64,000 nucleotides of DNA from assembly GCF_003208055.1 (NCBI RefSeq), contig NZ_QJUE01000001.1, positions 1-64,000 on the forward strand, written 5' to 3'. The position numbers and the translations under genes are program-made. Positions within the stretch are counted from its first letter, which is position 1. Every line of letters begins with the position of its first letter. Shown here piece by piece: positions 36,970 through 64,000 of this stretch. The notes beneath the pieces were generated by a model. The model was not told the DNA's origin, did not search any database, and saw only the letters and a list, made by a program, of their open reading frames with translations. The DNA comes from Prochlorococcus marinus XMU1408 (GTDB taxonomy: Bacteria > Cyanobacteriota > Cyanobacteriia > PCC-6307 > Cyanobiaceae).

Positions 36970-39285
36970 TTATAATTTTGATACCCAGAACTGATACATT
37001 CCTGCGAACGTGTTGGGATGTTTTTCTTCAAACTTTGCCCAGTTTTGTAAATTGATTTGTTTTTTATCTTCTGGGAAACATTGCTGATAAAGAGATTTAA
37101 CGGGTTGTGGCAGTAAGAATCCCAGAAACTTTAATTTATTAGAACTGAGAATATCTTGTAATTGGTTAATTGTGAATCTATGTTCTTGTGCGTGAAAGCA
37201 TAGATCACGACATTCTGACATCGTATAAAAATTACCCCAATTCCGAAGATTAGTTATTTGTTCAATTTTGCCAGAAAAAACATCTTCTCTCAAATTTTTG
37301 ATCTCTTCTTCATTTGGTTGAAGATTCTTAGTGGTTATGTACTCTCTTGCTGCAATAATATCTTGTCTTGCTAGTTCGCTATATAAACCCAATTTAAGAA
37401 AACCGTTATTTTTCAAACTATCCAATAATTCTCTCAACCCTTTTGAAGGATTATCCATATGGTGTAAAACACCTCCACATTCAATAATATCAAATTGTTC
37501 CTCTAATAAATTTACTTCTAAGAGATCCATCTCAATTAGTTCAACATTATCAATTCCAAGTTCATTTATCTTCCTTTGAGCATAAGATAAACTAGATAAA
37601 CTTAAATCTATAGCTGTGATTTGAGCGTTATTATACCTCTGTGTTTGTAAGATTTGATTACCTGTACCACATCCAGCAATGAGGATTTTTAATTGCTCCT
37701 CACCTTCATTTTTATTGATGTAGTTGGGTTTGATTTCACTATTAATTGCTTGATTAATAGATGACTTTTGACTTTCTTTATGACTTCCATATCTCCATCT
37801 AGGATATGGATTTTTTTCATATTGAGATTTTACTTTTTGAGAAATATTTTCATTAAAGGACCCTAATTTTTTGATATTTTGGGATAATTCAACTTCTTTC
37901 AAAGGTTCTATTATTTGTAATTTTATTAGTTCTTTAAAACTTTGATGAGAAGAATTAAAAGATTTTAAAGATGGTATTTGAGTAAGAAGTTTATACAGTG
38001 GCAAATAACAAGATAAAATTGAAATATTTGTTTCACTTACTTCCCCATTTTTACATTTATTGATTATTGTATTAATACATATATTTTCTTCTTCTGTTAA
38101 TGAGTAAACATATTCATTAAGAAAGCATTGTTCTCCTAAGGCAATAATAAATTGTAATTGAGAGAAACTTATTTCTTCTTTACTCTCGGCAATCCTATCG
38201 CATATATATTTTCTAACATTGGTTAGTAATTTCTCCAATCTAATATCCCTAAAAGTTATCTTTTTAAGTGCATTAATGATGACTTTTTCATTTACAAGCA
38301 TTTCTATTTTAGAAAAATCTAAATCTATTTTTTCTAGATTACTAATTATTTTATTGCTATATAAAAAGTTAAATGCATTAAATAATTCTTTATGAGTTAC
38401 ATCATTTCTCTCTAGCAAAAGATTTAATATATCTTTTAATTTTGCTTTCTTTAACTGAGATATGTCTGATTCTTTTATAAATCTAGTAATTGAGGAGTAA
38501 ATATTAGAATTTTTTGGATTGATATTAATTGTTTTAAGATAAGAATCAAATGCTCCTACTTGATCGCCAAGCTCATTCAATATGTTTCCCAGATTGTAAT
38601 GAGCATTTGCAAAATCAGGATTGAGTTCAATTGCTTTGCGGTAGGATAATTCTGCTTCTTTTAATTTGCCAAGATCTTTCAATATATTTCCTAGATTGGA
38701 ATGCGCCTGTGCGTAATTAGGATTAAGTTCAATTGCTTTGCGGTAGGATAATTCTGCTTCTTTTAATTTGCCAATATCTCTCAATATGACTCCCAGATTG
38801 TAATGAGCATCTGTGAAATCAGGATTGAGTTCAATTGCTTTGCGGTAGGATAATTCTGCTTCTTTTAATTTGCCAAGATCTTTCAATATATTTCCTAGAT
38901 TGGAATGCGCCTGTGCGTAATCAGGATTGAGTTCAATTGCTTTGCGGTAGGATAATTCTGCCTCTTTTAATTTGCCAAGATCTTTCAATACGTTTCCTAG
39001 ATTGGAATGTGCTTCTACGTAATCAGTATTAAGTTCAATTGCTTTGCGGTATAACAATTCTGCGTCTTTTAAGTTGCCAAGATTTTTTAATATGACTCCA
39101 TAATTAGAAAAAACCCTGTGATCTTTGAATCCTTGACTTATGAACTGTTGATAATATTTTGTTGCTTCTGAAACATTTCCCTGTGAATGAAACTTAAATG
39201 CTTGATTGATTATTTGTTCTTTAGAAGGTTTGGTTTTCTTATTGCGTTTCTTTTTAGATTTATGCTGATCTCCAAAACCTTTCAT
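36970..39285 (-). CDS. TPR-repeat protein with C-terminal class I methyltransferase
   Basis: A 771-residue modular protein. Residues 1-20 are Lys-rich (MKGFGDQHKSKKKRNKK). A helical module, SKEQIINQAFKFHSQGN followed by YYQQFISQGFKDHR, starts at 20; six to seven TPR units fill about 55-260. A divergent helical region (270-490) leads, via YEKNPYPRW, to an S-adenosylmethionine methyltransferase domain (about 500-771) with ILIAGCGTGNQ, AIDLS and CGGVLHHM. The N-terminal module and TPRs are shared with the proteins at 59,289, 61,427 and 63,045, which carry other enzymes. The methylated substrate is unknown; a surface glycan or protein is possible. The gene sits alone between guaA and argJ. Confidence 0.9.
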   Translation of the reverse strand: MKGFGDQHKSKKKRNKKTKPSKEQIINQAFKFHSQGNVSEATKYYQQFISQGFKDHRVFSNYGVILKNLGNLKDAELLYRKAIELNTDYVEAHSNLGNVLKDLGKLKEAELSYRKAIELNPDYAQAHSNLGNILKDLGKLKEAELSYRKAIELNPDFTDAHYNLGVILRDIGKLKEAELSYRKAIELNPNYAQAHSNLGNILKDLGKLKEAELSYRKAIELNPDFANAHYNLGNILNELGDQVGAFDSYLKTININPKNSNIYSSITRFIKESDISQLKKAKLKDILNLLLERNDVTHKELFNAFNFLYSNKIISNLEKIDLDFSKIEMLVNEKVIINALKKITFRDIRLEKLLTNVRKYICDRIAESKEEISFSQLQFIIALGEQCFLNEYVYSLTEEENICINTIINKCKNGEVSETNISILSCYLPLYKLLTQIPSLKSFNSSHQSFKELIKLQIIEPLKEVELSQNIKKLGSFNENISQKVKSQYEKNPYPRWRYGSHKESQKSSINQAINSEIKPNYINKNEGEEQLKILIAGCGTGNQILQTQRYNNAQITAIDLSLSSLSYAQRKINELGIDNVELIEMDLLEVNLLEEQFDIIECGGVLHHMDNPSKGLRELLDSLKNNGFLKLGLYSELARQDIIAAREYITTKNLQPNEEEIKNLREDVFSGKIEQITNLRNWGNFYTMSECRDLCFHAQEHRFTINQLQDILSSNKLKFLGFLLPQPVKSLYQQCFPEDKKQINLQNWAKFEEKHPNTFAGMYQFWVSKL
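38560..39070 (-). repeat. 102-bp tandem repeats encoding TPR units
   Basis: The motif TTCAATTGCTTTGCGG recurs at 38,626, 38,728, 38,830, 38,932 and 39,034, an exact 102-base (34-codon) period. The units are nearly identical at DNA level, implying recent expansion or gene conversion inside the TPR array. Confidence 0.95.
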
Positions 39286-44127: not shown

Positions 44128-44151
44128 AAAGATTATGAAATTCAACTTTAT

Positions 44152-44749: not shown

Positions 44750-46693
44750 ATGGCTGTGAAAAATACTAATCAATCTCTCTCTTGGACTATCCAAAATAGC
44801 TCAGACCTCTATGGGATTGAACGATGGGGAAAGGGTTATTTCACAATCAATGAAAAAGGGAATATTAGTATTTGTCCTAAAGGTTCCAAAAATAAATCTT
44901 ATGATTTGATGGAACTTTTAGATGAACTCGAAAGTCGAAAACTAAAATTTCCTCTCTTAATAAGATTTGACGATATTCTCGAAGACTGCTTAAAAAACTT
45001 ACATAAAGCTTTTGAAAAAGCAATTAATCACTATCAATATCAAGGAAAATACCAAGGTGTATTTCCAATCAAATGTAATCAACAGCGTCACGTAGTTGAA
45101 GAATTAATCACCTGTGGTTCCAAATGGAATTTTGGCTTAGAAGCTGGAAGCAAACCAGAGTTACTAATTGCTTTATCAATCCTAGAAGATCCTAAAGCTT
45201 TACTAATATGTAATGGCTATAAAGATCAACGTTATATTGAAACAGCTATTTTAGCACGTCAGCTTGGACGTCAACCTATAGTAGTTATAGAACAAGCAAG
45301 TGATGTTGATCTTATAATCAAATCTAGTAATTTACTGGGAGCATCTCCACTCATAGGAATACGAGCCAAACTATCAAGTCAAAGCAGTGGAAGATGGAGT
45401 AGCTCGATTGGTGACAAGTCGAAATTTGGACTGTCAATTCCAGAAATATTGAAAGCAATCAAAAGATTAAAAGAAGCAAATCTTCTCAATGAATTAAAGC
45501 TTTTACATTTTCATCTAGGGAGTCAAATTAACGATATAAGTGTTTTAAAAGATGCCTTACAAGAAGCAGGACACATTTATGCCGAATTAATTAATCTTGG
45601 GGCACCTATGGGATACTTAGATGTTGGAGGTGGTTTAGGAATTGATTACGATGGAAGTCAAACTGCCTCAATAGCATCTACTAACTATTCACTTCAAAAT
45701 TATGCAAATGATGTAGTAGCAACAATTAAAGAATGTTGTGAATCAAAAAAGATACCACTACCTACTTTAATTACAGAGAGTGGGAGAGCTATTGCTAGTC
45801 ATTTCTCAATCTTAATCTTCAATATATTAGGCAAAAATTCGTTGCCTTCTGACATTCCTAAAGAAGATGAAAAAGAATGTCTCTCTGTCAGAAATTTACG
45901 TGAAACATTAGTCCATCTAAATTCTCTAGAACTTAAGCAAGAAGAAGATTTAGCCAAACTACAAGAAGCATGGAATGATTCTCTTAAATTTAAAGCAGAT
46001 GCACTAGCGGCTTTTCGACTAGGTTATTTAGATTTAGTTGAACGTTCAAAAGCTGAGCAGTTGACATGGGCCTGTGCAAAAACAATAGTTAATCAATTAC
46101 CAAAAAATATACTTCTACCTAAAGAACTAAAGAAATTAAGTGAAAGCTTAGCCGTAACGTATTACGCAAATCTTTCCGTATTTAGATCGGCTCCAGACAC
46201 TTGGGCCATTGATCAAGTTTTTCCAATTATGCCAATCCATCGGCTTAACAAAGAACCCAACAAACTTGGTCACTTTGCGGATTTAACATGCGATTCAGAT
46301 GGAAAGCTTGACCAATTTATTGATAATGGAAAAATTAAAAATTTGCTACCTCTTCATGAATTTAATCAAAACGAAAAATATCTAATTGGTCTTTTCTTAG
46401 GTGGCGCCTATCAAGAAGTAATGGGAAATCTACATAATTTATTTGGGAGTACTAATGCAGTGCATATAAGATTTTCAGAAAAAGGGAAATATAAAGTTGA
46501 GCATGTCATTCGTGGGAATACAAAATCAAATGTTCTTGAATATTTGGAACATGATCCAGAAATATTATTAGAGCGATTACGAAAATCAAGCGAATTAGCT
46601 ATTCAAGGCGGGCATCTGAAAATCCATGATGCGCAAAAATTAATAGAACATGTAGAAGCCAGCCTCCGCCAAAGCACTTACCTACAGAGCTAA
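44750..46693 (+). CDS. speA: Biosynthetic arginine decarboxylase
   Basis: PLP enzyme making agmatine from arginine, the entry to putrescine and spermidine. The 647 residues match the SpeA family. The PLP lysine is Lys108 in GVFPIKCNQQ; HFHLGSQI and YLDVGGGLGIDYDG belong to the alanine-racemase-like barrel, and VFRSAPDTWAIDQVFPIMP and EKGKYKVEHVIRGN lie in the C-terminal half. Arginine supply comes from argH/argJ. It converges on alaS with a 1-base gap. Confidence 0.96.
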   Translation: MAVKNTNQSLSWTIQNSSDLYGIERWGKGYFTINEKGNISICPKGSKNKSYDLMELLDELESRKLKFPLLIRFDDILEDCLKNLHKAFEKAINHYQYQGKYQGVFPIKCNQQRHVVEELITCGSKWNFGLEAGSKPELLIALSILEDPKALLICNGYKDQRYIETAILARQLGRQPIVVIEQASDVDLIIKSSNLLGASPLIGIRAKLSSQSSGRWSSSIGDKSKFGLSIPEILKAIKRLKEANLLNELKLLHFHLGSQINDISVLKDALQEAGHIYAELINLGAPMGYLDVGGGLGIDYDGSQTASIASTNYSLQNYANDVVATIKECCESKKIPLPTLITESGRAIASHFSILIFNILGKNSLPSDIPKEDEKECLSVRNLRETLVHLNSLELKQEEDLAKLQEAWNDSLKFKADALAAFRLGYLDLVERSKAEQLTWACAKTIVNQLPKNILLPKELKKLSESLAVTYYANLSVFRSAPDTWAIDQVFPIMPIHRLNKEPNKLGHFADLTCDSDGKLDQFIDNGKIKNLLPLHEFNQNEKYLIGLFLGGAYQEVMGNLHNLFGSTNAVHIRFSEKGKYKVEHVIRGNTKSNVLEYLEHDPEILLERLRKSSELAIQGGHLKIHDAQKLIEHVEASLRQSTYLQS

Positions 46694-46694
46694 A

Positions 46695-49355
46695 TCAAGA
46701 CAATTGTTGAGTCAAATCTTCATTAGCTTTTTCTAAAGCTAGATCCAACGATTGAGGTTGACTACCACCTGCTTGAGCAAAATTTGGGCGACCGCCGCCG
46801 CCGCCGCCGCACATTTTTGCAACCCCACTTATAAATTTGCCTGCATGTAAACCATCTGAGACTAAATCAGGAGAAAATGCAACAACAAAAACTAATTTAG
46901 TATCGATCTCCTGATTTGGAATACCTCCAAAAACAACAGCAGAATACTTGCCTAAATGATCTATTAAACTTGAAGCCGCAGATTGCAATCCAGATCCGTC
47001 AACTCCATCTAAACGTCTAATTAATAATTTACTCTTACCAACAGATTTTGCATAACTCGCCAAACCCAATGCTTTTGCCAAAGCGAGTTCATTTTTTACT
47101 TTGATGAGTTCTTTTGTTTTATCTTTCAATTCCTGTTGAAGAGATGAGACTCTCTCAACAATTTCATATGATTGAACTTTGAATGATTTACTTAACTCCT
47201 TAACTACCAAATCACGTTCATTAAAATAATCTAAAACTGATGGACCAGCTATGGCCTCTATTCGTCTGATACCAGAAGCTATACCTGTCTCATTAATAAT
47301 CTTAAACGTACCTAGTTGTGACGTGCGAGTGACATGGGTTCCTCCACATAACTCCATAGAAACACCTGGAACATCCACAACACGTACCACATCGCCATAT
47401 TTCTCACCAAACATTGCCAAAGCACCAGCAGCCATAGCCTCCTTAATTGGCATTGTTTTAATTTGAATTGGATGATCTTCAGTAATCCATTGATTTATTC
47501 GTACTTCCATATCTTCAAGTTCTTTTATTGTCAAAGGTTTTGGAGCATTAAAATCAAATCTCAATCGATCATTTGAAACTAACGAGCCTCTTTGACTTAC
47601 ACTTGAGTCAATCAATAACTTCAAAGCTGATTGTAATAGATGTGTAGCGGTGTGATTTGATGTAGTTCGTTGACGAAAAGATGGAGTAACATTCATCTGA
47701 ACAGATGAGTTAACTTTTAGAACTCCGGTACTAACAATTCCGGAATGAATAAAAATATTCTTCTTTTTTCGAACATTGTCTATAGACACCTCAAGATCTT
47801 GAGATGTTATTAAGCCTTTATCTCCGATTTGGCCACCTGACTCAGCATAAAAAGGCGTTTTATTAACAATAATCTTGACTAAATCACCCTGAATAGCTTG
47901 TTTTACTAATTCATTATTTTTAAAGATGCCTATCACAGTTGAAGTGGTTTCTAAATTGTCATAGCCCTCAAATCTTGTTTCATCAAATAAAGAAATTTCT
48001 CTTTCAATTGAACCTTCTTCAGTTAAATCAATACTGACAGAAGCATCTTTTGCACGTTTGCGTTGCTTTGCCATCTCCTTCTCAAAACCATTAATATCAA
48101 CAGAAATACCTTTTTCATTCGCGATCTCTTCTGTTAATTCCAAAGGAAAACCATAAGTATCATAAAGCTCAAATGCCTGCGCACCAGAGATAAGATCACA
48201 TTCATGAGCTGTTATCTCTGCCAAAAGTTTCTCTCCCCGTTCAAGCGTTTCAAGGAAACGAGATTCTTCTATTTTTAACTCATTAAGAATAATTTTCTTT
48301 TTCTCAAGTAATTGAGGATAAGCATTTTTCATCAACTCAATAGCAACTTCAGCCAGCTGTGGTAAAAACGGCTGATTAATACCTACCAGTCGACCATGTC
48401 GAATCATACGCCGTATGAGACGACGAAGAATATAGCCTCGCCCTAGATTACTAGCACTTACACCATCACAAATTAAATGAGTGACAGCTCTGCAATGATC
48501 TCCAATAATTTTTAATGATGTTTTATTTTTTTTATTTGTATTTTTATAAGTAATTTGAGCTAATAAAGCAGCTGCTTCAATGAGAGGAAAAATAAGATCC
48601 GTTTCGTAATTGTTAGATTTTTTTTGCAAGATTTGAGCCATTCTTTCTAAGCCCATTCCTGTATCAATATGACAATTCGCCAATGGTTCAAGATTGCCCT
48701 TTAAGTCCCGGTTGTATTGCATAAAAACCAAATTATAAAATTCTATAAATCTACTATCATCTTCAAGATCTATTCCATCACTTCCTAATTCCGGTTTAAA
48801 ATCAAAATAAAGTTCCGAACACGGACCACAAGGTCCTGTAGCACCAGATGACCAAAAATTATCAGAGGCACCCATTCTGATAATTCTTTTTGCATCAACC
48901 CCTACAACCTCTTTCCATATTTTCTCTGCTTCTGAGTCTTCTTCAAAAACACTAATAACTATATTCTGTGGATTTAGTCGAAAAACCTCAGTAGTTAATT
49001 CCCAGGCCCATTGAATTGCCTCTTTTTTAAAATAGTCACCAAAAGAAAAATTACCTAGCATCTCAAAAAAAGTATGATGCCTCGCCGTTTTCCCTACATT
49101 TTCAATATCATTTGTTCTTATACATTTTTGACTGGATGTTGCTCTCGGAGTAGAAGACTCTTTTAATCCTAAAAAGATAGGTTTAAAAGGTAACATCCCC
49201 GCAATTGTCAATAAAACTGTTGGATCATCTGGAATCAATGAAGAACTTGCAAGTTTCTTATGATTATGTTGGGTAAAAAAATTTATAAATGCTTCTCTTA
49301 TCTCATCTCCCGAAAGGAATGGAGGATTCATTGAGGAGGAAAAATTTTTTTGCAT
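46695..49355 (-). CDS. alaS: Alanyl-tRNA synthetase
   Basis: Charges tRNA(Ala) and edits mischarged Ser/Gly. The 886 residues include the class II core (TSSQKCIRTNDIENVG, ARHHTFFEMLGNFSFGDYFKK), GYILRRLIRRMIRHG, and the editing domain zinc site built from HTATHLL and CGGTHV. The C-terminal C-Ala domain contains the glycine stretch CGGGGGGRPNFAQAGG encoded by a local run of GCC/CGC repeats. Position 49,355 is an ATG; a second ATG lies 6 codons later (MNPPFLSGDEIR), which may be the real start. Confidence 0.97.
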   Translation of the reverse strand: MQKNFSSSMNPPFLSGDEIREAFINFFTQHNHKKLASSSLIPDDPTVLLTIAGMLPFKPIFLGLKESSTPRATSSQKCIRTNDIENVGKTARHHTFFEMLGNFSFGDYFKKEAIQWAWELTTEVFRLNPQNIVISVFEEDSEAEKIWKEVVGVDAKRIIRMGASDNFWSSGATGPCGPCSELYFDFKPELGSDGIDLEDDSRFIEFYNLVFMQYNRDLKGNLEPLANCHIDTGMGLERMAQILQKKSNNYETDLIFPLIEAAALLAQITYKNTNKKNKTSLKIIGDHCRAVTHLICDGVSASNLGRGYILRRLIRRMIRHGRLVGINQPFLPQLAEVAIELMKNAYPQLLEKKKIILNELKIEESRFLETLERGEKLLAEITAHECDLISGAQAFELYDTYGFPLELTEEIANEKGISVDINGFEKEMAKQRKRAKDASVSIDLTEEGSIEREISLFDETRFEGYDNLETTSTVIGIFKNNELVKQAIQGDLVKIIVNKTPFYAESGGQIGDKGLITSQDLEVSIDNVRKKKNIFIHSGIVSTGVLKVNSSVQMNVTPSFRQRTTSNHTATHLLQSALKLLIDSSVSQRGSLVSNDRLRFDFNAPKPLTIKELEDMEVRINQWITEDHPIQIKTMPIKEAMAAGALAMFGEKYGDVVRVVDVPGVSMELCGGTHVTRTSQLGTFKIINETGIASGIRRIEAIAGPSVLDYFNERDLVVKELSKSFKVQSYEIVERVSSLQQELKDKTKELIKVKNELALAKALGLASYAKSVGKSKLLIRRLDGVDGSGLQSAASSLIDHLGKYSAVVFGGIPNQEIDTKLVFVVAFSPDLVSDGLHAGKFISGVAKMCGGGGGGRPNFAQAGGSQPQSLDLALEKANEDLTQQLS

Positions 49356-49646
49356 ACCTAAAAATTATCTCTAAAAAGGTTTTTGAAAACAATCACAAAA
49401 ACGTCAAATGTGCTCAACTCACCCTAAACAATAACAAAATGGAAACCCGTGAGACTTCTAAAGACAAAATATTCAAAAAAATCATTCGATAAACTGGCTT
49501 ATTGCAAACAAATACTATTTACGGGAAGCAGTATCACACTTACAAACCTCAATATCCTATTATGGTTGAAATGAACTAGGTATTTTCACTTAGCAACCTG
49601 ATTTATTGCAGCCTTCAGGCTTTCTCTAATTAATGGCTTTAGGAAC

Positions 49647-51422
49647 ATGATTTTTACTGAATCGACAGCTTTAGCAAATCAGAAAAGTGATACTCCTAAG
49701 CTTTCACTGCAATATGAACAAATTGCTGCAGATACTCACACTTTAAGGTCATTGGATTGGGATCGAAGCAGATTTGATATTGAATTCGGCCTTCGAAATG
49801 GGACAACATATAATAGCTTTTTAATAAGAGGCAAAAAAACTGCTCTTATAGATACAAGTCATTTAAAGTTTAAAGATATTTGGTTTGAAAAACTAAGACA
49901 AGAAATCAATCCAACAGAAATTGATTATTTAATAGTCAGTCATACGGAGCCGGATCATTCAGGACTCATAAAATACTTAATTGAATTAAATCCAAATATT
50001 GAAATCGTCGCATCTAAAGTAGCTATAAAATTCCTAGAAGATCAAATTCATCAACCTTTTAAGTCACGAGCAGTCAAAAGTGGAGAGGAACTCAATTTAG
50101 AAATTAATTCAATCAGCGAAATCGAGCATAAAATTGAATTTATTAGTGCACCAAACCTGCACTGGCCCGATACTATTTTTTCTTTTGATCATGGAACACA
50201 AGTTTTATATACTTGTGATGCGTTTGGTTTGCATTATTGCTCAGAAAAATTGTATGACGAAAATCCAAGCTTATTAAATGAAGATTTTCGATTTTATTAC
50301 GACTGCCTCATGGGTCCTAATGCCCGCAGTGTAGTTCAGGCATTAAAAAAAATTGATGCATTGCCAACTATCAATACTATTGGTGTTGGACATGGACCAA
50401 TCCTTAATTTTAATACGCAGTTATGGCTGAATCATTACAGAGAATGGAGTAAGCAAAGAAGTACAGGCGAAAATTACGCTGTGGTTTGCTATCTCAGCCA
50501 ATATGGTTTTTGTGATCGGCTTAGTCAAGCAATTGCTCATGGCATAGGCAAGGCAAATGCTCCAGTCCAATTAGTTGATCTTATTGCTTCAGACACTCAA
50601 GAGTTAAGTGCTTTGATTAGTGACGCAAGTGCAGTCGTTGTACCAACTTGGCCCATCAAATCTGATTCAGAATTACAAAGCAATATTGGAACCCTACTTG
50701 CATCCTTAAAACAAAAGCAGTGGGTAGCGACTTATGACTCCTATGGCGGAAATGAAGAGCCTATTGACTTTATTACCAACCAATTAAGAAAGCTCGGACA
50801 AAAAGAAGCTTTTAAACCACTTCGAGTTCGTGACGAACCAAACAAAAGTGTTTATCAACAATTTGAAGAAGCTGGTACAGATTTAGGTCAAATTCTTACT
50901 AGAAAGAAAAATTTAGCTGCCACTAAAAGCCTTGATGGAGACTTAAATAAAGCACTCGGTTGCATAAGCGGTGGACTATACATTGTTACAGCGAAAGATA
51001 GTGAAGGCCCGGATAGTCGAGACGGTGCGATGGTTGCAAGTTGGGTTAGTCAAGCAAGTTTTGAACCGCCTGGAATAACCGTAGCAGTGGCTAAAGATAG
51101 AGCCATTGAATCACTATTACAAGTCAATGATCGTTTTGTTCTCAATATCCTTCAAGAAAATAACTATTTGCACCTCTTCAGACACTTTTTAAAACGTTTT
51201 CCACCAGGTGCTAATCGATTTGAAGGAGTTGAATTAATGAATGATCTTGCAGCTGGAGGACCAGTTCTATCTGATGCGTTAGCGTTCCTTTCATGTAAAG
51301 TTATTCAAAGAATGGAGACAACAGATCATTGGATAATTTATTCATTAGTTGAAAAAGGTAATTTATCTAATACTCAAAGTAAAACAGCTGTTCATCACAG
51401 AAGAGTTGGTAGTAATTATTAA
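49647..51422 (+). CDS. flv3: Flavodiiron protein, Flv3 type (canonical di-iron site)
   Basis: Class C flavodiiron protein, 591 residues: metallo-beta-lactamase domain (about 30-265), flavodoxin domain (about 280-425) and C-terminal flavin reductase domain (about 440-591). Iron ligands are intact: SHTEPDHSG, NLHWPD, YTCDAFG and GVGHGPI. In cyanobacteria Flv3 works with Flv1 to reduce O2 to water with electrons from photosystem I, protecting it under fluctuating light. The gene for the Flv1-like partner follows after 2 bases. It has a 154-base upstream region that should contain the promoter of the pair. Confidence 0.92.
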   Translation: MIFTESTALANQKSDTPKLSLQYEQIAADTHTLRSLDWDRSRFDIEFGLRNGTTYNSFLIRGKKTALIDTSHLKFKDIWFEKLRQEINPTEIDYLIVSHTEPDHSGLIKYLIELNPNIEIVASKVAIKFLEDQIHQPFKSRAVKSGEELNLEINSISEIEHKIEFISAPNLHWPDTIFSFDHGTQVLYTCDAFGLHYCSEKLYDENPSLLNEDFRFYYDCLMGPNARSVVQALKKIDALPTINTIGVGHGPILNFNTQLWLNHYREWSKQRSTGENYAVVCYLSQYGFCDRLSQAIAHGIGKANAPVQLVDLIASDTQELSALISDASAVVVPTWPIKSDSELQSNIGTLLASLKQKQWVATYDSYGGNEEPIDFITNQLRKLGQKEAFKPLRVRDEPNKSVYQQFEEAGTDLGQILTRKKNLAATKSLDGDLNKALGCISGGLYIVTAKDSEGPDSRDGAMVASWVSQASFEPPGITVAVAKDRAIESLLQVNDRFVLNILQENNYLHLFRHFLKRFPPGANRFEGVELMNDLAAGGPVLSDALAFLSCKVIQRMETTDHWIIYSLVEKGNLSNTQSKTAVHHRRVGSNY

Positions 51423-51424
51423 TA

Positions 51425-53275
51425 ATGACAGTAGAAAATATTTCTTCGCTAAATTTAAATACTTTCATAAAAAAAACCATTCAGATTCCTATTGAGGAAA
51501 ACTTCATTTGCTTAAGAAGCCTAAACCCAAAAAGAACAAGATTTGAAGTTGAATATTCTCTTGAAAAAGGTAGTTGCACTAATTCTTTTTTATTTAAGCC
51601 TTCTGAAGATGAACATTCTAAATCACAAGATTATATTTTAATTCACCCTCCTGGTTTAACATTTGAAAAAGAATTTCTAGACGAGTTTGAGACATTAATT
51701 AGCAGTGATTCGTCTGCAATAAAGTTAGTCATGGGTCATATCAATCCCAATAAAGTAGCTTTTGTGAAAAGAATGAATGTGAAATATAAAAATTTAACGG
51801 TTATTTGTTCTAATCCAGGTGCAAAATTATTCAAAGAGATTTGGAATTTACGAAAACCCTCGCAAAATACAAATCCTAAAAAAGCATTGGAGACAGTTGA
51901 AGTTCTTCCAAATATACAAATCATTAAACAATTAGAAACTCTGTCACTCGAAAGTAATTTTGAGGTTACGTTCATTCCCGCGCCAACAGCTCGCTGGCCT
52001 GGTGGACTAATTGTTTTTGAGAAGCAAACTGGTTTATTGATGAGTGATAAATTGTTCGGTGCACATGTTTATGAAGAAAAATGGGCTGAATTAAACAGCA
52101 GTAGCACGGAAGAAGAGAGAAGACATTACTTCGATTGTCTAATGGCACCAATGTCTACCCAAGTCAATAGCATTATCGAAAAATTTGAAGACTTCGAGAT
52201 TGATACGATAGTACCCGGACATGGACCTGCAATCAGCGGTAGTTGGAGGAGTTTATTAAACAACTACCAAAGCTGGGGAGAAAGCCAAAAATACAGCAAC
52301 TTAAGAGTTGCTCTATTGTTTGCAAGTGCATATGGAAATACTGCTGCTATTGCTGATGCCATTGCTAGGGGAATTAGTAAAACAGGGGTCAAAGTTAAGA
52401 TTATTAATTGTGAATTCACCGCATCAGATAACTTAGTCACTGAAATTCGTAAAGCAGATGGATATTTAATTGGATCGCCAACGTTAGGAGGACATGCACC
52501 TACCCCGATTGTTTCAGCACTTGGCTCTCTTTTGGCTGAGGGAGATAGAGGAAAGCCGGCTGGAGTATTTGGAAGTTATGGATGGAGTGGGGAAGCTCTT
52601 GATTTACTTGAAAAAAAGTTAAAAGATGGAGGCTTTAAATTTGGATTCGAACCTATAAAAATCAAATTTAGTCCTGATCCTTTAATGATTAAAAAACTTG
52701 AAGAAACAGGTATTCAATTTGGTAAGCAATTAATTAATGCAAAATTACGGCAACAAAGAAAGGCTAATGTAGGTTTAAATACAAGTAAAAGTGATCCAAC
52801 AATTAATGCACTCGGAAGAGTCGTCGGATCACTATGTATATTGACTGCTCAAAAAGGAGATGAAGATAATCTTATTAGCGGAGCTATGGTTGCAAGTTGG
52901 GTTAGTCAAGCAAGCTTTTCTCCTCCTGGTATTACGATTGCAGTCGCTAAAGAAAGAGCTGTAGAAAACTTACTTCATACAGGAGATAACTTTGCTCTAA
53001 ACATTTTAGAGCAAAACAATCACCAAAGCCTCCTTAAACAATTTCTCCAATCATTCAAACCTGGAGATAATAGATTTAACGATCTAGAAATTAAATTAAG
53101 TCCAAGCAATCAGCCTTTATTAAACGAAGCTTTAGCTTGGCTGGAGGGTACAGTTAGTCAACGAATGGAGTGTGGGGATCATTGGCTGATATATGCTGAG
53201 ATTAAACATGGAAAAGTCATTAAAAAAGATGGAGTAACAGCAGTTCATCATCGAAAAACCGGAGCGAACTACTAG
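51425..53275 (+). CDS. flv1: Flavodiiron protein, Flv1 type (degenerate di-iron site)
   Basis: The 616-residue class C partner of the preceding protein, with the same three domains and a flavodoxin-domain start LRVALLFASAYGNTAA. Most iron ligands are replaced: MGHINPNKVAF in place of the HxExDH motif, ARWPGG (Arg for His), and SDKLFG (Lys for Asp); only the last histidine (VPGHGPA) remains. This is the known Flv1/Flv2 condition, where the site is not a normal di-iron centre and activity needs the heteromer. The reductase end SGAMVASWVSQASF is well kept. Two-gene operon with 2-base spacing. Confidence 0.92.
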   Translation: MTVENISSLNLNTFIKKTIQIPIEENFICLRSLNPKRTRFEVEYSLEKGSCTNSFLFKPSEDEHSKSQDYILIHPPGLTFEKEFLDEFETLISSDSSAIKLVMGHINPNKVAFVKRMNVKYKNLTVICSNPGAKLFKEIWNLRKPSQNTNPKKALETVEVLPNIQIIKQLETLSLESNFEVTFIPAPTARWPGGLIVFEKQTGLLMSDKLFGAHVYEEKWAELNSSSTEEERRHYFDCLMAPMSTQVNSIIEKFEDFEIDTIVPGHGPAISGSWRSLLNNYQSWGESQKYSNLRVALLFASAYGNTAAIADAIARGISKTGVKVKIINCEFTASDNLVTEIRKADGYLIGSPTLGGHAPTPIVSALGSLLAEGDRGKPAGVFGSYGWSGEALDLLEKKLKDGGFKFGFEPIKIKFSPDPLMIKKLEETGIQFGKQLINAKLRQQRKANVGLNTSKSDPTINALGRVVGSLCILTAQKGDEDNLISGAMVASWVSQASFSPPGITIAVAKERAVENLLHTGDNFALNILEQNNHQSLLKQFLQSFKPGDNRFNDLEIKLSPSNQPLLNEALAWLEGTVSQRMECGDHWLIYAEIKHGKVIKKDGVTAVHHRKTGANY

Positions 53276-53325
53276 ATCCATTACAAAAACGACATCATCC
53301 ATTCACTCTTCCCTTTTGATTCACA

Positions 53326-53853
53326 ATGTCTAATAAAAAGCTTCTTGTTATAGCTGCTAGTAATGGTGAAAATCTCAAACTAGCCAAAAGATTTCTAGTT
53401 GCATGCAAAGAACTAAATTACTCATGTGAATTACTTGATTTGACGGAATCCAAAAATGATTTACCTATATTTAATCCACGTCATAATTCAAAAGATAAAG
53501 CACCAGAAAATCTTAAATCGATTAATACTCAAATGGAGAGCCACTCTCACTGGGTCATTTGTGCGCCAGAATATAACGGCTCAATTCCTCCAATTCTTAC
53601 AAATGCAATAGCTTGGCTTTCTGTACAAGGAACAGATTTTCGCAGTTTATTTAACGAGCGTCCAATTGCAATTGCAAGTTTTTCCGGAGGAGGGTGTATG
53701 GAATTATTACTTTCGATGAGAGTTCAATTAACCCATCTTGGAGCTTTAGTCTTAGGTCGTCAATTAGCTACGAATAAACAAAAAATTGCTGAGGATAAGT
53801 CAATCAACGCAATTCTAAATCAATTACTAAAACTTAATCATTCTAATCTTTAG
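53326..53853 (+). CDS. NADPH-dependent FMN reductase family protein
   Basis: A 175-residue flavodoxin-fold protein. The FMN loop region is LLVIAASNGENLKLAKRF, and the second flavin motif CAPEYNGSIPPILTNAIAWLS is diagnostic of the NADPH-dependent FMN reductase/chromate reductase family. It may supply reduced flavin or act as a quinone reductase; the substrate is unknown. It begins 51 bases after flv1 on the same strand and could be read with it. The gap to the convergent PBP2 gene is only 7 bases. Confidence 0.88.
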   Translation: MSNKKLLVIAASNGENLKLAKRFLVACKELNYSCELLDLTESKNDLPIFNPRHNSKDKAPENLKSINTQMESHSHWVICAPEYNGSIPPILTNAIAWLSVQGTDFRSLFNERPIAIASFSGGGCMELLLSMRVQLTHLGALVLGRQLATNKQKIAEDKSINAILNQLLKLNHSNL

Positions 53854-53860
53854 TTCTAAT

Positions 53861-55672
53861 TCACTCATCATTAGATTTTTGCTCATACCATGTCTCTAAT
53901 ATTTTTCTTGCCATGGGTAAAGCATGAACTGAACCGCCACCAGGAGTATTCTGAGCAAAAGCAACAATAACTATTTCTCCAGAATCATAAGGTGCAAAGC
54001 CAGCAAACCATGCATGATCAGCCCCTCCACTACTATCTTCAGCCGTTCCTGTTTTGCCGGCAACAGGAGGAAGAACAGAGGTGTCTAAATTTATTCCTAT
54101 ACCAGTACCATTAGTTACTACTTTTCGAAGACCTCGACGAATTGTATCTAATGTTGAATCTTTAATATCTACCTTCTGTAAATATTTTTCAGATCTCCAA
54201 TTTTTTTTAGCATCAACTAAATGAGGAGTTATTAGATAGCCACCATTGGCAAATACTGCATATGCACGTGCCAATTGTAATGGAGTAACTTGAACAACCG
54301 ATTGACCAATAGAGGCGCTAGCCAGATCCTCTACAATCCAAGGGGTTTCTCCAGGTTTACCCCAACCACGACCTTCAGCAGCCCATTCCTTATTCCCAAC
54401 TAAACCCTTATTCTCATCAAAAATAGTTTCTATACCTGTGTAATTATCGAAGCCAAGTTTGATTGCAGCATCATACAAAGCATTTGATCCAGCCCAGACT
54501 CCAACCTGATAAAAAAATGTATTACTAGATACTCTAAGTGCATCTTCATATCCAATCCAACCAAAACCTCTTCTATTATATTCTGGAAAACAATGGCTAC
54601 CATATGTAATACAAGGAACCGTATTCAATTTTCTACTGGCAGGAACTTTACCACTTTCCATACCTGCTATAGCAGTTACAGGCTTCCATGTACTCCCTGG
54701 ATCGTATGCATTAAATGCTCTACTCAAAAGAGGATCCTTCTTTGACAAAAATAAGCTGTCATATTGAAAACTTGTAAAAGGTTGAGAAAAAAAATTAAGG
54801 TCAAAAGTAGGTTGACTCGCAATTGCTCTAATTGCACCTGTACGTGGATCAAGCGCTACTATTGCTCCACCAACTTTGTCAGATAATACTTTTTCTGCAG
54901 TACGTTGCAGATCTAAATCAAGAGTTAACCTTATATCCTTTCCAGCTCTGGGTAATTTCAACCCTAAACTACGCTGAACTGTACCTATTGCGTCGATCTC
55001 CAGCATTTCGCCTCCCCATTTACCTCTCAATTCAGATTCAAAAGCAGCTTCTATACCTTTTCTTCCAATTCGATCAGATAATTTATACCCTTGTTCTGAA
55101 AGTTTAGAAAACTCTTTTTGAGTTATCAACTGGGTATAACCCAAAGCATGAGCTGCTAGTGACTTATAAGGATAATTTCTAATTAAATCAATATCTATCT
55201 GAGCACCATATAAATTATTTTCTTGTTCTTTAAACCTAACTACTTGCTCCTCAGATAAATCAGTTAATAATATTTTTTTATACGGAGTATCTAAATTATT
55301 TCTATTAAAAGCAATCTCTAATTTCTTAGTAGAAACATTTAACAAATCAGATAAAGACCTTCTTAAATCAATCCATTCACTATTAGTTATAAGTCTAGGT
55401 TGAACTGATAAAGAATAAAATAATTTATTATCCGCTAGAACCTTTCCATTACGATCTAATAATCTTCCTCTTATTGGTGGATTAGCAATTAGCTTAATTC
55501 TATTTTCTTCTGAAAGTTTTTTATAGTAAGAGCCATTAATTATTTGTATCCAAAAAAGACGAAAGCCAGTTATTGAAAAAACAAAACAAATAAACAAAAA
55601 GAAAACTAGAGGTTGATTAAAAGCACCTACATGCTTTTTAGAACTTAAATAGAATTTTTCCTTTTTCTTCAT
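53861..55672 (-). CDS. mrdA: Penicillin-binding protein 2, elongasome transpeptidase
   Basis: Cross-links peptidoglycan during sidewall growth. The 603 residues have one N-terminal membrane anchor (about 21-44, VFFLFICFVFSITGFRLFW), a dimerisation domain with IRGRLLDRNGKVLADN, and the transpeptidase: DPGSTWKPV (active Ser and Lys of SxxK), SSNTF (SxN) and KTGTAED. No PASTA domains, so PBP2 (MrdA) rather than a late PBP. It is followed 3' by flv genes in the opposite direction and precedes no rodA here. Confidence 0.93.
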   Translation of the reverse strand: MKKKEKFYLSSKKHVGAFNQPLVFFLFICFVFSITGFRLFWIQIINGSYYKKLSEENRIKLIANPPIRGRLLDRNGKVLADNKLFYSLSVQPRLITNSEWIDLRRSLSDLLNVSTKKLEIAFNRNNLDTPYKKILLTDLSEEQVVRFKEQENNLYGAQIDIDLIRNYPYKSLAAHALGYTQLITQKEFSKLSEQGYKLSDRIGRKGIEAAFESELRGKWGGEMLEIDAIGTVQRSLGLKLPRAGKDIRLTLDLDLQRTAEKVLSDKVGGAIVALDPRTGAIRAIASQPTFDLNFFSQPFTSFQYDSLFLSKKDPLLSRAFNAYDPGSTWKPVTAIAGMESGKVPASRKLNTVPCITYGSHCFPEYNRRGFGWIGYEDALRVSSNTFFYQVGVWAGSNALYDAAIKLGFDNYTGIETIFDENKGLVGNKEWAAEGRGWGKPGETPWIVEDLASASIGQSVVQVTPLQLARAYAVFANGGYLITPHLVDAKKNWRSEKYLQKVDIKDSTLDTIRRGLRKVVTNGTGIGINLDTSVLPPVAGKTGTAEDSSGGADHAWFAGFAPYDSGEIVIVAFAQNTPGGGSVHALPMARKILETWYEQKSNDE

Positions 55673-59288: not shown

Positions 59289-61085
59289 ATGGAAGGATCT
59301 GATAGGAGCAAACAAGGAAAGAACCAAGTGAGTACAGTCACAACTTTTCCGATTCCATATGCTCTAGAAGGCTTTAAAGAAAATCATACTTCTATTACCA
59401 ATAGCTCCATATCATCTAAAGAGCAAATAATTAATCAAGCTCTTAAGTTGCATTCACAAGGAAATATTTCAGAAGCAAAAAAATATTATCAATATTGCAT
59501 TGATCAAGGTTTTAGTAATCACAAAATTTTGTCTAATTATGGAAGCATCCTAAAAGATCTTGGCAACTTACAAGAAGCCAAATTAGCTACTCGCAAAGCT
59601 ATTCAACTTAAACCTGACTACGCAGAAGCTTATTGCAATCTAGGAAGCATATTAAAAGATCTTGGCAACTTACAAGAAGCCAAATTAGCTACTCGCAAAG
59701 CTATTCAACTTAAACCGGATTTCGCAATAGCGCACTCCAATCTAGGAGGAATATTTATAGATATCGGCAACTTACAAGATGCAGAATTGGCTATTCGCAA
59801 AGCCATTCAACTTAAACCCGATTTAGCGAGTGCTCACTTCAATCTAGGCATCATCTTGAAAGATCTTGAGAAATTGTATGACGCAGAATTAGCTACTCGC
59901 AAAGCGATTCAACTTAAACCTGATTATACAGAAGCTTATACCCAGCTTGGAAATATTTTGAGAGATCTTGGCAACTTAGATGATGCTGAATTATCACTAC
60001 GAAAAGCTATTGAACTCAAACCTGACTTTGCAGATGCTTATTCCAAGCTTGGGAACATCTTGAGAGATCTTGGTAATCTACATGATGCTGAATTATCACT
60101 ACGAAAAGCTATTGCATTAAAACCTAACTTTGCAGATGCTTATTTTAATCTCTCATTAATAGAGCTACTAAAAGGAAATTATCAATCTGGTTTAGATAAC
60201 TATGAATATAGATTCTTGACAAATAAGCCAATTATTCCACACTGCAAAAGAGAAATCAAAAAACTTACTAATAAAAAACTACAAAAAGAAAATAAGACAT
60301 TAGTCGTTACTGAACAAGGTTTAGGTGATACGCTTCAATACATGCGCTTCATACCATATCTAAGAAATAAAGGTTTTGACATTTCTTTTTGTGCGCAGAA
60401 AAAACTACATACATTGATCAAAGCATCAGAGATAGATCCAAATCCATTAACTCCAGATCAAGCAAAACATTTTTTGGATTGTGATGTGATACCCCTTTTG
60501 TCATTACCACGATCCCTTGGAATTACACCAAGAAATTCAATTGTTTCAAAACCATATATTTTTCCAACAAATAAACTTGTCAAAAAATGGAAAGATGCCC
60601 TTTCCCAAGAAAAAAAAACAATTATTGGTATAAATTGGCAAGGTAATCCAGATGTCGAAAAAAATATGCTAAGAGGTAGATCATTAAGTCTTGAACTTTT
60701 CTCTACTCTTTCAAGAAATAATAATTTAAAATTTGTATCCCTACAGAAAGGTTTTGGTTCAGAGCAGTTAAAAAATTGCTCGTTTAGGTATCAATTTGTG
60801 GGATGTCAATCAGAGATAGATTCGACTTGGGATTTTCTTGAGAATGCTGCCATTATTGCCAACTGTGATTTGATTATTACTTCTGACACTTCAATAGCTC
60901 ATTTAGCTGGAGGAATGGGAAAAAAAGTTTGGCTTCTTTTAAGAGATATTCCTTATTGGACTTGGGGACTTGAAGGAGACAGTAGCTTTTGGTATCCATC
61001 GATGAGATTATTTCGACAGAAAGAAAGACATAATTGGAATGAAGTCATGAATAGAGTCTCTGAACAACTAAATAATGAAATGTAA
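59289..61085 (+). CDS. TPR-repeat protein with GT9-like glycosyltransferase domain
   Basis: 598 residues. The N-terminus contains the leader motif FPIPYALEGF (about 20-29), then the helical module SKEQIINQALKLHSQGN and seven 34-residue TPRs (about 75-310). The C-terminal domain (about 336-598) resembles heptosyltransferase-like GT9 enzymes: VTEQGLGDTLQYMRF, GINWQGNPD, and TSDTSIAHLAGGMGKKVW with the nucleotide-sugar-binding region. Such proteins are thought to build surface polysaccharides or lipopolysaccharide. Acceptor and sugar are unknown. A near-twin starts at 63,045, and an FkbM relative lies between them. Confidence 0.9.
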   Translation: MEGSDRSKQGKNQVSTVTTFPIPYALEGFKENHTSITNSSISSKEQIINQALKLHSQGNISEAKKYYQYCIDQGFSNHKILSNYGSILKDLGNLQEAKLATRKAIQLKPDYAEAYCNLGSILKDLGNLQEAKLATRKAIQLKPDFAIAHSNLGGIFIDIGNLQDAELAIRKAIQLKPDLASAHFNLGIILKDLEKLYDAELATRKAIQLKPDYTEAYTQLGNILRDLGNLDDAELSLRKAIELKPDFADAYSKLGNILRDLGNLHDAELSLRKAIALKPNFADAYFNLSLIELLKGNYQSGLDNYEYRFLTNKPIIPHCKREIKKLTNKKLQKENKTLVVTEQGLGDTLQYMRFIPYLRNKGFDISFCAQKKLHTLIKASEIDPNPLTPDQAKHFLDCDVIPLLSLPRSLGITPRNSIVSKPYIFPTNKLVKKWKDALSQEKKTIIGINWQGNPDVEKNMLRGRSLSLELFSTLSRNNNLKFVSLQKGFGSEQLKNCSFRYQFVGCQSEIDSTWDFLENAAIIANCDLIITSDTSIAHLAGGMGKKVWLLLRDIPYWTWGLEGDSSFWYPSMRLFRQKERHNWNEVMNRVSEQLNNEM

Positions 61086-61426
61086 GAATAATACTTGAAT
61101 ATAATAACAACAGATTAGTAGTTAATATTATTGCTCTCAAAATTATATCTTAAAAGCGTCATTCCCATGAATCTCAATTACTACCCTTATCTTATATAAT
61201 TAATATATGAAATAGAAAAGAGACATTATTAACTTAGGATATTTCTCAATGAAGTAAATAAGATTAAATCATGGTAAAGAATTTCTACTTGTATTCAATA
61301 TCTCATTCCGAAGATATAATGTTAAAGAAAGCCTTATTATAGTCGTTTCATAAATTTAACAAAAGATTTAAGAAGGACTATAAATAAAAAAATAATTATA
61401 GTAGAATTAAAAATAAAATAGACCAA
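61086..61426. other. Intergenic region, no gene seen
   Basis: 341 very AT-rich bases between two same-strand TPR-family genes. No hairpin terminator, ORF above 25 codons, or repeat shared with the other spacers is recognised. Confidence 0.55.
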
Positions 61427-62518
61427 ATGGAAGATTTTAGAAAAAATAAACCACTGAAAAAAAAAATCACTGAAATAAAAATATTTACAGTTCCATTTGC
61501 TTTAGAAGAAAACAAACAAAATCTTTCTTTTGATACTAATAGACATTACAAATATTCTAAAGAAGAAATAATTAATCAAGCATTTAAATTTCATTCAGAA
61601 GGAAACATTCAAGAAGCAATAAAGTATTATCAATTTTTTGTAGAAAAAGGTTTTAAAGATTACCGAATTTTTTCTAACTATGGAGCAATATTAAAAGATC
61701 TTGGCAACTTAGAAGCTGCAGAATTATTTACTCGTAAAGCTATTGAAATCAATCCTGATTTTGCTTTGGGATATTCTAATCTTGGCAAAATATTAAACGC
61801 GTGTGGTAAATTAGAAGAAGGAGAGTTAGAAAAGAATAAAGGTATTAATTTAAGTTTTATTCAGAATATTGATGCTAAAAATAAAGAAGAGTGTTTAAAA
61901 AATCTATCTCTCTCAAAATCACAATTTAAACAGGATCTATTTGTTCTCAGTGAATTGAATTTTAAAAAAAATGGCTTTTTCGTAGAATTCGGTTCTTACG
62001 ATGGTTTAACTGGTTCTAATTCATATATATTAGAAAAATATTTTAATTGGAATGGCATACTAGCTGAACCCTGTATCTCTTGTTATGAGCAATTAAAAGA
62101 AAACCGTTCAGTGATTATAGAAACTAAATGTGTATGGAAAATATCAGGAGAAGAAATCATATTTAATGAACCATTTTCACATAAACAAAATTCTACAATA
62201 GATAGTATTTCGGATAACAGAAAAAATATTTACAAGGAGGGAAATAGATATAAAGTTAAAACTATTTCATTATTAGATTTATTAGAAAAAAATAATGCAC
62301 CAAGATTTATAGATTACTTATCTATAGATACTGAAGGTAGTGAATTTGAAATTCTAAATGTATTTGATTTTAAAAAATATAAATTTAATGTGATTACATG
62401 TGAACATAATTTTACCCCTATGCGAGAAAAAATTTATAATTTATTAACAAGTAAAGGTTATCAAAGAAAATTAACAAATATATCAAGAGTTGATGATTGG
62501 TATGTTCTTAATGAATAA
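61427..62518 (+). CDS. TPR-repeat protein with FkbM methyltransferase domain
   Basis: 363 residues. The leader motif appears as FTVPFALEEN (about 21-30), followed by SKEEIINQAFKFHSEGN and only two to three TPR units (about 50-140). The C-terminal FkbM-type S-adenosylmethionine methyltransferase (about 183-363) has FVEFGSYDGLTGSNSY and the late motif YLSIDTEGSEFEIL. FkbM enzymes O-methylate sugars in antibiotics and polysaccharides, so glycan methylation is a reasonable inference. It lies between two TPR-glycosyltransferase paralogues. Confidence 0.88.
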   Translation: MEDFRKNKPLKKKITEIKIFTVPFALEENKQNLSFDTNRHYKYSKEEIINQAFKFHSEGNIQEAIKYYQFFVEKGFKDYRIFSNYGAILKDLGNLEAAELFTRKAIEINPDFALGYSNLGKILNACGKLEEGELEKNKGINLSFIQNIDAKNKEECLKNLSLSKSQFKQDLFVLSELNFKKNGFFVEFGSYDGLTGSNSYILEKYFNWNGILAEPCISCYEQLKENRSVIIETKCVWKISGEEIIFNEPFSHKQNSTIDSISDNRKNIYKEGNRYKVKTISLLDLLEKNNAPRFIDYLSIDTEGSEFEILNVFDFKKYKFNVITCEHNFTPMREKIYNLLTSKGYQRKLTNISRVDDWYVLNE

Positions 62519-63044
62519 GTTTATTTCCAATCATCTCTACGTATTATAAGAGGATAAAAACATTTTACCTAAAAGCAAAAGATAGTTTCCGAAGATAAAG
62601 CTAAATCACTTAAAGGCATGCGCTCAATTAGTTTCTAAGATAAAGTCCTGACTAATCAAAGATGAAAAGATTTTTGATTAAAAAATCAATAAAAAAGTAT
62701 TTCTATTGCAAAAAAAATAGTATATATATATTGAATTAATTAAATTCTACTTATAGTAAAATTTTATAGAAAAATCATTCTAAAGGAATAATCAAATAGC
62801 ATGACCTTTCTCAAATCTAATTACTAACTCAGCTAATTTATATAAAAACTCTCATCAGCAAAATATAAAAGACACTTTTGAGACCTTTCCGAGGCATAAG
62901 CGAGTCAAATGCGGGGTGTCACCATTGTGGCATATTAATAAAAATAGCTATTATAGTATTGAAAATTATTCCACTTATACTATTTATATGATTAGATAAA
63001 CATTCTCAAGTAAATACTTCTTATTTCTTTTTATAAAATAAAAA
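62519..63044. other. Intergenic region with hairpin and GC-richer block
   Basis: 526 bases. TAATCAAAGAT (62,653-62,663) pairs with ATTTTTGATTA-side bases at 62,670-62,680 to form an 11-bp stem with a 6-base loop. At 62,883-62,934 a block is much richer in G and C than its surroundings and contains GGTGTCACC. No ORF or known RNA is recognised in either. Confidence 0.5.
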
Positions 63045-64000
63045 ATGAAGGAATCTGATAAGAAAGAGCAAGGGAACAAACCTATTAATGAAGTAATCAC
63101 ATTCCCAATTCCATATTCTTTAAGCGGAATTAAAAGTAATAATACTAATAGTAGAAAACTTCCTTCTAAAATTACTAAAGAACAAATCATTAAGCAAGCT
63201 ATTAAATTACAACTACAAGGTAATATTAAGAAAGCATCAAAATACTATCAATATTGTCTTTCTCAAGGATTTAAAGACACAAGAATATTTTGTAATTATG
63301 GCATCATATTAGAGAATCTAGGAAAGTTAAAGGAAGCAGAATTATTATTTCTTAAAGCAATTGAACTGAATCCTAATTCCGCAGAAGCACATTCTAATCT
63401 GGGCATCATATTGAAAGATCTTGGCAACTTAAAAGAAGCAGAATTATCACTTCGTAAGGCAATTAAATTAAATCCTGATTTTGCAATGGCTCATTCCAAT
63501 CTGGGAAACGTATTAAGTGATATCGGCAACTTAAAAGAAGCAGAATTATCACTTCGTAAGGCAATTAAATTAAATCCTGATTTTGCAATGGCTCATTCCA
63601 ATTTGGGAAACGTATTAAGTGATATCGGCAACTTAAAAGAAGCAGAATTATCACTTCGCAAGGCAATTGAATTGAATCCTGATTATGTTGAAGCATCTGC
63701 AAATCTTTCAGTACTTGAACTACTGCGCGGCGACTATAAAAATGGTCTGGAAAATTATGAATTTAGATTTCACCAAAAAAAAACAATTATTCACTCAAAA
63801 CCACAGATTAACAAAGTAGATAATAACAAACTCCCAAAAGATGAAAAGCTATTAATAATTAGTGAGCAAGGGTTAGGAGATACGCTTCAATATATGCGCT
63901 ATATCCCTTATCTTAGAGAGCAAGGTTTTAATGTTTCCTTTTGTGCTCAAGAAAAACTACATTCATTGATCAAAGCATCAAATATTGATCCAAACCCATT
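63045..64000 (+). CDS. TPR-repeat protein with GT9-like glycosyltransferase domain (3' end beyond window)
   Basis: Open reading frame from ATG 63,045 to the window edge, 318 codons seen. It starts MKESDKKEQGNKPINE, has the leader motif FPIPYSLSGI, the module TKEQIIKQAIKLQLQGN, and about five TPRs, two of which are almost identical at DNA level. From about residue 268 it enters the same GT9-like domain as the protein at 59,289 (ISEQGLGDTLQYMRYIPYL, FNVSFCAQEKLHSLIKAS). The C-terminal catalytic half is not visible, so completeness cannot be judged. It is a paralogue in tandem with 59,289, with the FkbM gene between them. Confidence 0.88.
   Translation, partial: MKESDKKEQGNKPINEVITFPIPYSLSGIKSNNTNSRKLPSKITKEQIIKQAIKLQLQGNIKKASKYYQYCLSQGFKDTRIFCNYGIILENLGKLKEAELLFLKAIELNPNSAEAHSNLGIILKDLGNLKEAELSLRKAIKLNPDFAMAHSNLGNVLSDIGNLKEAELSLRKAIKLNPDFAMAHSNLGNVLSDIGNLKEAELSLRKAIELNPDYVEASANLSVLELLRGDYKNGLENYEFRFHQKKTIIHSKPQINKVDNNKLPKDEKLLIISEQGLGDTLQYMRYIPYLREQGFNVSFCAQEKLHSLIKASNIDPNP
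63431..63634 (+). repeat. Nearly perfect 102-bp tandem duplication inside TPR array
   Basis: Two adjacent 102-base units (63,431-63,532 and 63,533-63,634) differ at a single base (C versus T, synonymous). Each encodes one 34-residue TPR. This is a very recent unit duplication or gene conversion. Confidence 0.95.

Follow-up and report, generated by a model that had tools for sequence, protein, structure and literature searches.

Prochlorococcus proteins in which one tetratricopeptide scaffold is shared by at least twelve unrelated enzyme heads and appears to be copied among them

In the first 64,000 nucleotides of contig NZ_QJUE01000001.1 of Prochlorococcus marinus XMU1408 (C1:1-64000, hereafter the window; the whole genome has 1.80 Mb in seven contigs), four genes encode proteins with the same N-terminal tetratricopeptide repeat (TPR) module followed by different enzyme domains. 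Judging from sequence comparisons with relatives, they belong to a family that has expanded in one Prochlorococcus genus and that combines a common scaffold with at least 12 unrelated heads or, in a few members, with short headless tails. The same comparisons indicate that the scaffold has been exchanged between genes with different heads, with breakpoints in 102-bp repeats, and that both the heads and the first repeat (the capping TPR) are under purifying selection.

The original prediction had placed the four open reading frames (ORFs) at 59289, 61427, 63045 and 36970, where all of them exist, the first three in tandem. They are composed of the following parts:

59289..59414, + strand: leader (aa 1-42) of the protein with the GT9-type head (598 aa), with TFPIPY; leader profile E 3.4e-14
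59415..59645, + strand: capping TPR and first TPR of the same protein; module profile E 3.4e-46
59541..60151, + strand: TPR array of the 59289 gene, 102-bp tandem repeat, 6.0 copies, 79% matches
60126..61085, + strand: GT9-type glycosyltransferase head of the 59289 gene, GT-B fold according to the predicted structure; boundary approximate
61427..61555, + strand: leader of the protein with the FkbM head (363 aa), with FTVPFALE; leader profile E 5.8e-17
61556..61786, + strand: capping TPR and first TPR of the same protein; E 2.3e-45, helices 45-57, 61-73, 79-91 and 95-108
61991..62464, + strand: FkbM methyltransferase head (PF05050) of the 61427 gene; Pfam E 2.0e-15
63045..63173, + strand: leader of the third tandem gene, with TFPIPYSL
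63174..63404, + strand: capping TPR and first TPR of the third tandem gene; E 2.7e-44
63305..63684, + strand: TPR array of the 63045 gene, 102-bp repeat, 3.7 copies, 87% matches
63681..64000, + strand: start of the second GT9-type head (63045 gene), which goes on to C1:64661 beyond the window
38995..39225, - strand: capping TPR and first TPR of the 771-aa protein of the 36970 gene; E 3.1e-47
38566..39094, - strand: TPR array of the 36970 gene, 102-bp repeat, 5.2 copies, 87% matches
36970..38520, - strand: class I S-adenosylmethionine (SAM) methyltransferase head of the 36970 gene, with its own N-terminal extension; outer boundary approximate
37402-37686, - strand: Pfam core of this methyltransferase; PF13649 E 1.4e-16

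The N-terminal similarity is not a generic TPR resemblance, since genomes from 15 other families of the same class gave no match at E<=1e-12 to a profile of the module (77 positions). With this profile, the four window genes score 150-160 bits (E 2.7e-44 to 3.1e-47) and 12 further genes of the genome 66-150 bits, far above the generic TPR proteins of the genome (at most about 45 bits). The helical module of the original prediction is therefore real, and corresponds to a 34-residue capping TPR ahead of ordinary TPRs (AlphaFold helices 45-57 and 61-73 in the 61427 protein). Pfam TPR models are matched above cut-off by the 34-residue helix-turn-helix repeats (TPR_1 E 5.3e-41 on the 59289 protein). 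The INQA...HSxGN motif by which the module had been recognized is not found in the 63045 protein, which has IIKQAIKLQLQGN, but the module itself is common to all four. With a score of at least 60 bits as the limit, 130 members were collected from the window genome and 13 relatives. Residues 42-44 mark the beginning of the module in 83 of these, the number of TPRs varies from 1 to 16, and no member has a transmembrane-like, membrane-spanning or signal-like segment. The capping TPR shows a ratio of nonsynonymous to synonymous polymorphism (pN/pS) of 0.38, as expected under purifying selection.

Before the capping TPR there is a leader of about 43 residues, absent from the original prediction, whose TFPIPY, FTVPFALE and TFPIPY motifs precede the module in the three tandem genes. 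Of 108 members that bear a TFPVPF-like motif, 88 have it exactly 24 residues upstream of the module. Its best positions reach F92%, V87%, P99%, L86% and N87% in members picked by a pattern that fixes some of these residues; the flanking residues vary freely. The leader of the 61427 protein is predicted to be disordered, with residues 1-39 at a predicted local distance difference test score (pLDDT) below 50. Only the N-terminal part of this full-length AlphaFold model was used, as its mean pLDDT is 65 and its FkbM head is unreliable. Among the matches listed, at most 7 of about 133 leaders are not followed by a capping TPR (counted by eye). Several members, including the 771-aa protein of the 36970 gene, have a second type of leader (MKGFG...KKK; short in this protein), and the member G011 796599 resembles a hybrid of both types. 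An isolated stretch resembling the leader (G000:C5:344337-344399, E 5.7e-4) is interrupted by one in-frame stop and may be the remnant of a decayed family gene.

The heads were grouped by clustering all sequence after the TPRs, together with Pfam searches, and at least 12 unrelated types were found among the 130 members. These are GT9-type (27), sulfotransferase (24), GT41 (13), class I methyltransferase (12), TylF-type (11), three groups similar to 2-oxoglutarate (2OG) oxygenases (8, 4 and 4), one unknown head (5), FkbM (4), SGNH-like (3) and singletons (2). Some members are headless and end in short conserved tails: G002:C1:1091065, G002:C1:1720863 and G022:C27:11171 share CSEKIMSLRSWSI(S/T)GSY(S/G)FNYEM, and other headless members have REGDGSIIFDLKKGFS-like tails. 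Within the window, the three enzyme types of the original prediction are indeed carried by one scaffold, as GT9-fold (two genes), FkbM and class I methyltransferase heads. The head of the 63045 gene, however, lies past the window end; in the genome it is GT9-type, in a protein of 538 aa ending at C1:64661.

Catalytic activity of the heads is likely, and their sequences fit known enzyme families to different degrees. The FkbM head of the 61427 gene is above the curated cut-off of PF05050 (55.5-57.4 bits against 22.7), as is the methyltransferase head of the 36970 gene for PF13649 (61.4 bits, cut-off 27), and all 12 class I methyltransferase heads have the glycine-rich SAM motif [AV]GCGxG. One representative GT41 head matches PF13844 with 257 bits (E 3e-76), and one representative sulfotransferase head matches PF13469 above the cut-off (90.5 bits). 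The motifs expected to bind 3'-phosphoadenosine-5'-phosphosulfate are present in 16 of 24 (5' motif, SGS[TS]) and 21 of 24 sulfotransferase heads (3' motif). From the oxygenase-like classes, one is above the profile cut-off (PF13759) and two are below. The SGNH-like head has neither a Pfam match nor a relative among PDB sequences, the HIG[DE]SH motif alone being present. No relative among PDB sequences was found for the unk6 head either, whose copies are 76-88% identical to one another. Purifying selection is indicated for the heads by median pN/pS values of 0.31-0.50.

The GT9 assignment had to be qualified. No Pfam GT9 match was obtained for the window heads, and for that of the 59289 gene no Pfam family besides TPR was found at E<=0.001. 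Its AlphaFold model (pLDDT 84.6, predicted template modelling score 0.87) has a GT-B fold and matches GT9 structures best, with a Foldseek E-value of 5.8e-07 and VIA-align Z scores of 17.2 to 3tov, 17.0 to WaaF (1psw) and 15.5 to TibC, on a background in which unrelated enzymes remain at Z <=12.0 and NDH-complex chains rank at 14.7-15.6. We therefore call it a predicted GT9-fold head and do not claim full membership in GT9.

Scaffolds and heads have almost completely discordant histories. The comparisons behind this statement were picked after the family had been seen, but they follow the original prediction, which expected separate trees of both parts to disagree. In 117 members, scaffold identity is 0.613 between members with the same head and 0.614 between members with different heads, and the nearest scaffold carries the same head in 12% of the cases (12% expected). 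Its source is the same genome in 39%, against an expectation of 13%. On the scaffold tree the head type requires 79 changes, as many as in shuffled data (79.8 +/- 2.4) and thus randomly distributed, and the genome of origin requires 61 (78.7 +/- 2.3 when shuffled), which is not random. Correlations between scaffold and head distances are close to zero in five of six head classes (-0.18, -0.04, 0.10, 0.08 and 0.06), where control correlations between the two halves of the head reach 0.97, 0.79, 0.96, 0.87 and 0.91. A stable co-inheritance of scaffold and head can be rejected for most classes. Weak phylogenetic signal is an unlikely cause of the discordance, because the scaffold tree does group by genome and recent exchange tracts are 97-100% identical.

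The exchanges can be followed at the nucleotide level. From 10 scaffold pairs with at least 90% identical DNA, 8 have different heads; in the best one, 360/360 nt are identical, with a sulfotransferase following in one gene and an unknown head in the other. Near-identical scaffolds align over 500-1,064 nt at 87-98.5% identity and the alignments end in the last TPRs, as in two adjacent genes with 1,064 nt at 98.5% identity followed by unrelated heads. Assembly chimeras are disfavoured, since the key pairs are adjacent or on the same chromosome in the complete genomes G002 and G011. In the two classes profiled, GT9 and sulfotransferase, linkage with the head climbs at the head boundary. Recombination within the TPR arrays had been predicted to swap heads; the breakpoints are in the TPRs, but copying of scaffolds between genes is at least as evident. 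Most tracts lie within the gene, from a point past the start codon to the last TPRs, and scaffolds therefore seem to be copied between genes in a gene-conversion-like way and thereby homogenised within a genome. A clean in-place head swap, sought at one syntenic slot beside the conserved gene C7, was not proven: the adjoining intergenic DNA is not conserved and therefore the slot shows gene turnover.

The window genome has 17 family genes, and complete or near-complete congeners have 45, 42, 38, 17, 16, 2, 1 and 0 at a threshold of E<=1e-9; none was found in G007, a congener that is 95% complete. The genus is probably of the low-light LLI type. Of the 251 genomes of the taxonomic family, 49 contain at least one match, and beyond this genus the number per genome is mostly one or two. 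The G000 contigs C5, C6 and C7 start in or beside TPR repeats (matches C5:371-904, C6:5-706 and C7:10-90), which suggests that the assembly broke there and that the copy number of the window genome may be underestimated.

The family genes form several clusters, of which that in the window corresponds to a syntenic hypervariable island, with guaA and its neighbour on one side and a penicillin-binding protein block on the other. The flanking genes are conserved in 11 genomes, and in nine genomes mapped the number of family genes that they enclose is 0, 1, 3 or as high as 16. The conserved block lying between guaA and the penicillin-binding protein (39518-55672) seems to be inverted or rearranged in comparison with eight congeners, hence the family genes on both sides of it in the window genome. 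In some congeners the slot beside guaA contains repetitive, possibly secreted or surface-type proteins (an 868-aa ORF in the G007 C7 island, a 573-aa ORF in G209 C6 and a 368-aa ORF near 1374 kb of G002 C1). Two copies of a small ORF, possibly a small-protein family, are also present in a family cluster at C1:66167-66340 (57 aa) and C1:74257-74442 (61 aa), equivalent to L060:11168-11341 and L060:19258-19443, and read CGNPFK..AIE..K.TFSKS.GVP.QGNDWCD. A phage origin of the scaffold was rejected, as a pattern search did not find it in IMG/VR and phage records gave one weak generic TPR match only.

The sequences thus show a modular family with a common soluble scaffold, made of the disordered leader with its TFPVPF motif, the capping TPR and 1-16 TPRs. 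Repeat-mediated recombination and gene conversion keep copying this scaffold among paralogues with different heads, mainly in hypervariable islands. As the rather probable explanation, we suggest that the scaffold would serve as recognition arm for acceptors bound for the envelope. TPR superhelices, like short linear motifs, typically mediate protein-protein contacts, and OGT chooses its substrates through its TPRs; a common recognition role of the leader, the TPR superhelix or both is therefore the simplest one for the scaffold. Cytosolic enzymes guided in this way would sulfate, glycosylate, methylate and 2-oxoglutarate-hydroxylate acceptors that are shared or at least related. Most likely these would be precursors of a glycan or glycoprotein of the cell envelope, and each strain would decorate its own surface with its own combination. 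We favour such a toolkit because the head chemistries are those acting on glycans, glycoproteins and proteins, but this functional part is only moderately likely. A role against phages or grazers is speculation.

Some observations weigh against this explanation. Strict catalytic motifs are incomplete (SGS[TS] in 16/24 sulfotransferases and GYPG[TS]xG in 4/13 GT41 heads), so some heads may be inactive. The class I methyltransferases (n=11) show a scaffold-head correlation of 0.51 (p 0.04); their control value of 0.35 is uninformative. In G148 (C1:38.7 kb, L206; open frame of 580-598 aa) a leader directly precedes a class I methyltransferase head and no TPRs are left, apparently through deletion between similar repeat segments; the TPRs are thus dispensable, at least for keeping that gene. 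Finally, the genes scanned next to those of the window are housekeeping genes, and no operon for nucleotide sugars or surface polysaccharides was recognized there.

The main rival is that long similar repeats simply recombine, so that conversion homogenises the arrays while the scaffold acts as a generic stabiliser and each head keeps its own substrate. Such concerted evolution without functional swapping would account for tracts that mostly begin inside the gene and end in the TPRs, for the excess of nearest scaffolds from the same genome, and for heads that are conserved (as in unk6) next to scaffolds averaging about 60% identity. It explains less well why the leader motif, outside the repeats, is kept at a fixed spacing among freely varying residues, why the capping TPR is under purifying selection, and why so few of the leaders listed occur without it. 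We regard this alternative as possible but clearly the less convincing one. Much more improbable is that the leader serves as a signal for delivery or localisation, with the heads as payloads that act on neighbours or phage, comparable to polymorphic toxins: a constant leader, a variable C-terminus and an island location would fit, but the heads are modifying enzymes of metabolic type rather than nucleases or pore formers, and signal-like or membrane-spanning segments are lacking in the members. Furthermore, six members of the window genome had no PADLOC defence-protein match beyond TPR-, methyltransferase- and 2OG-type similarity, immunity genes not being systematically searched for. TPR Pfams are most represented in low-light Prochlorococcus, for which a photosystem II (PSII) role was suggested (PMC11357015), and the family could in principle belong to such an excess of TPR proteins for PSII assembly or heterotrophy. 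We find this hardly credible for proteins that end in sulfo-, glycosyl- and methyltransferases and oxygenases, are borne on islands, and range in copy number between 0 and 45 in a single genus, with none found in G007.

Bacterial fusions of TPRs with sulfotransferase, FkbM and glycosyltransferase domains are known individually and have a similar two-part architecture; to our knowledge, no case has been described in which a dozen heads share a single scaffold that is shuffled among them. In the open-access literature (subscription papers and preprints were outside the search) we did not find the common leader, the range of heads or the scaffold exchange described, which is not proof of novelty. 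The nearest parallel is with OGT, SPINDLY and their bacterial relatives, TPR-GT41 transferases of O-GlcNAc or O-fucose that likewise have a TPR superhelix followed by the transferase, as the 13 GT41-headed members do; OGT also has the closest solved TPRs, weakly, to the last repeat before the GT9 head. In contrast to these enzymes, the scaffold studied here is common to at least 11 other head types and exchanged among them, and has a conserved leader ahead of the TPRs. The predicted fold of the window head is matched best by GT9 heptosyltransferases (among them TibC, which acts on protein), but with about 9-16% identity and no fusion to a TPR scaffold such as this one. Prochlorosins and polymorphic toxins also combine a constant N-terminal part with a diversified C-terminal part in many paralogues; they are not homologous to this family, whose payloads are whole enzymes, and the likeness is an analogy.

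Prochlorococcus is a photosynthetic bacterium with a very small genome and a textbook case of genome streamlining. Despite this, some complete genomes keep 38-45 genes of this family, an estimated 4% or so of the sequence in the richest one (45 x ~1.77 kb in 1.92 Mb). The family offers a different, testable reading of the low-light TPR excess from the link to PSII (PMC11357015). Its natural scaffold-enzyme chimeras may also help to learn if a TPR arm determines which substrate is chosen, whatever the catalytic head. Tentatively, and with more doubt than certainty, the family could be a self-diversifying combinatorial toolkit, in which a common recognition arm (TFPVPF leader and TPR superhelix), continually recombined onto unrelated enzymes, lets each lineage mark a single class of acceptors with its own combination of sulfate, sugar, methyl and hydroxyl groups. 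If true, it would be a polymorphic-like system decorating the cell's own molecules.

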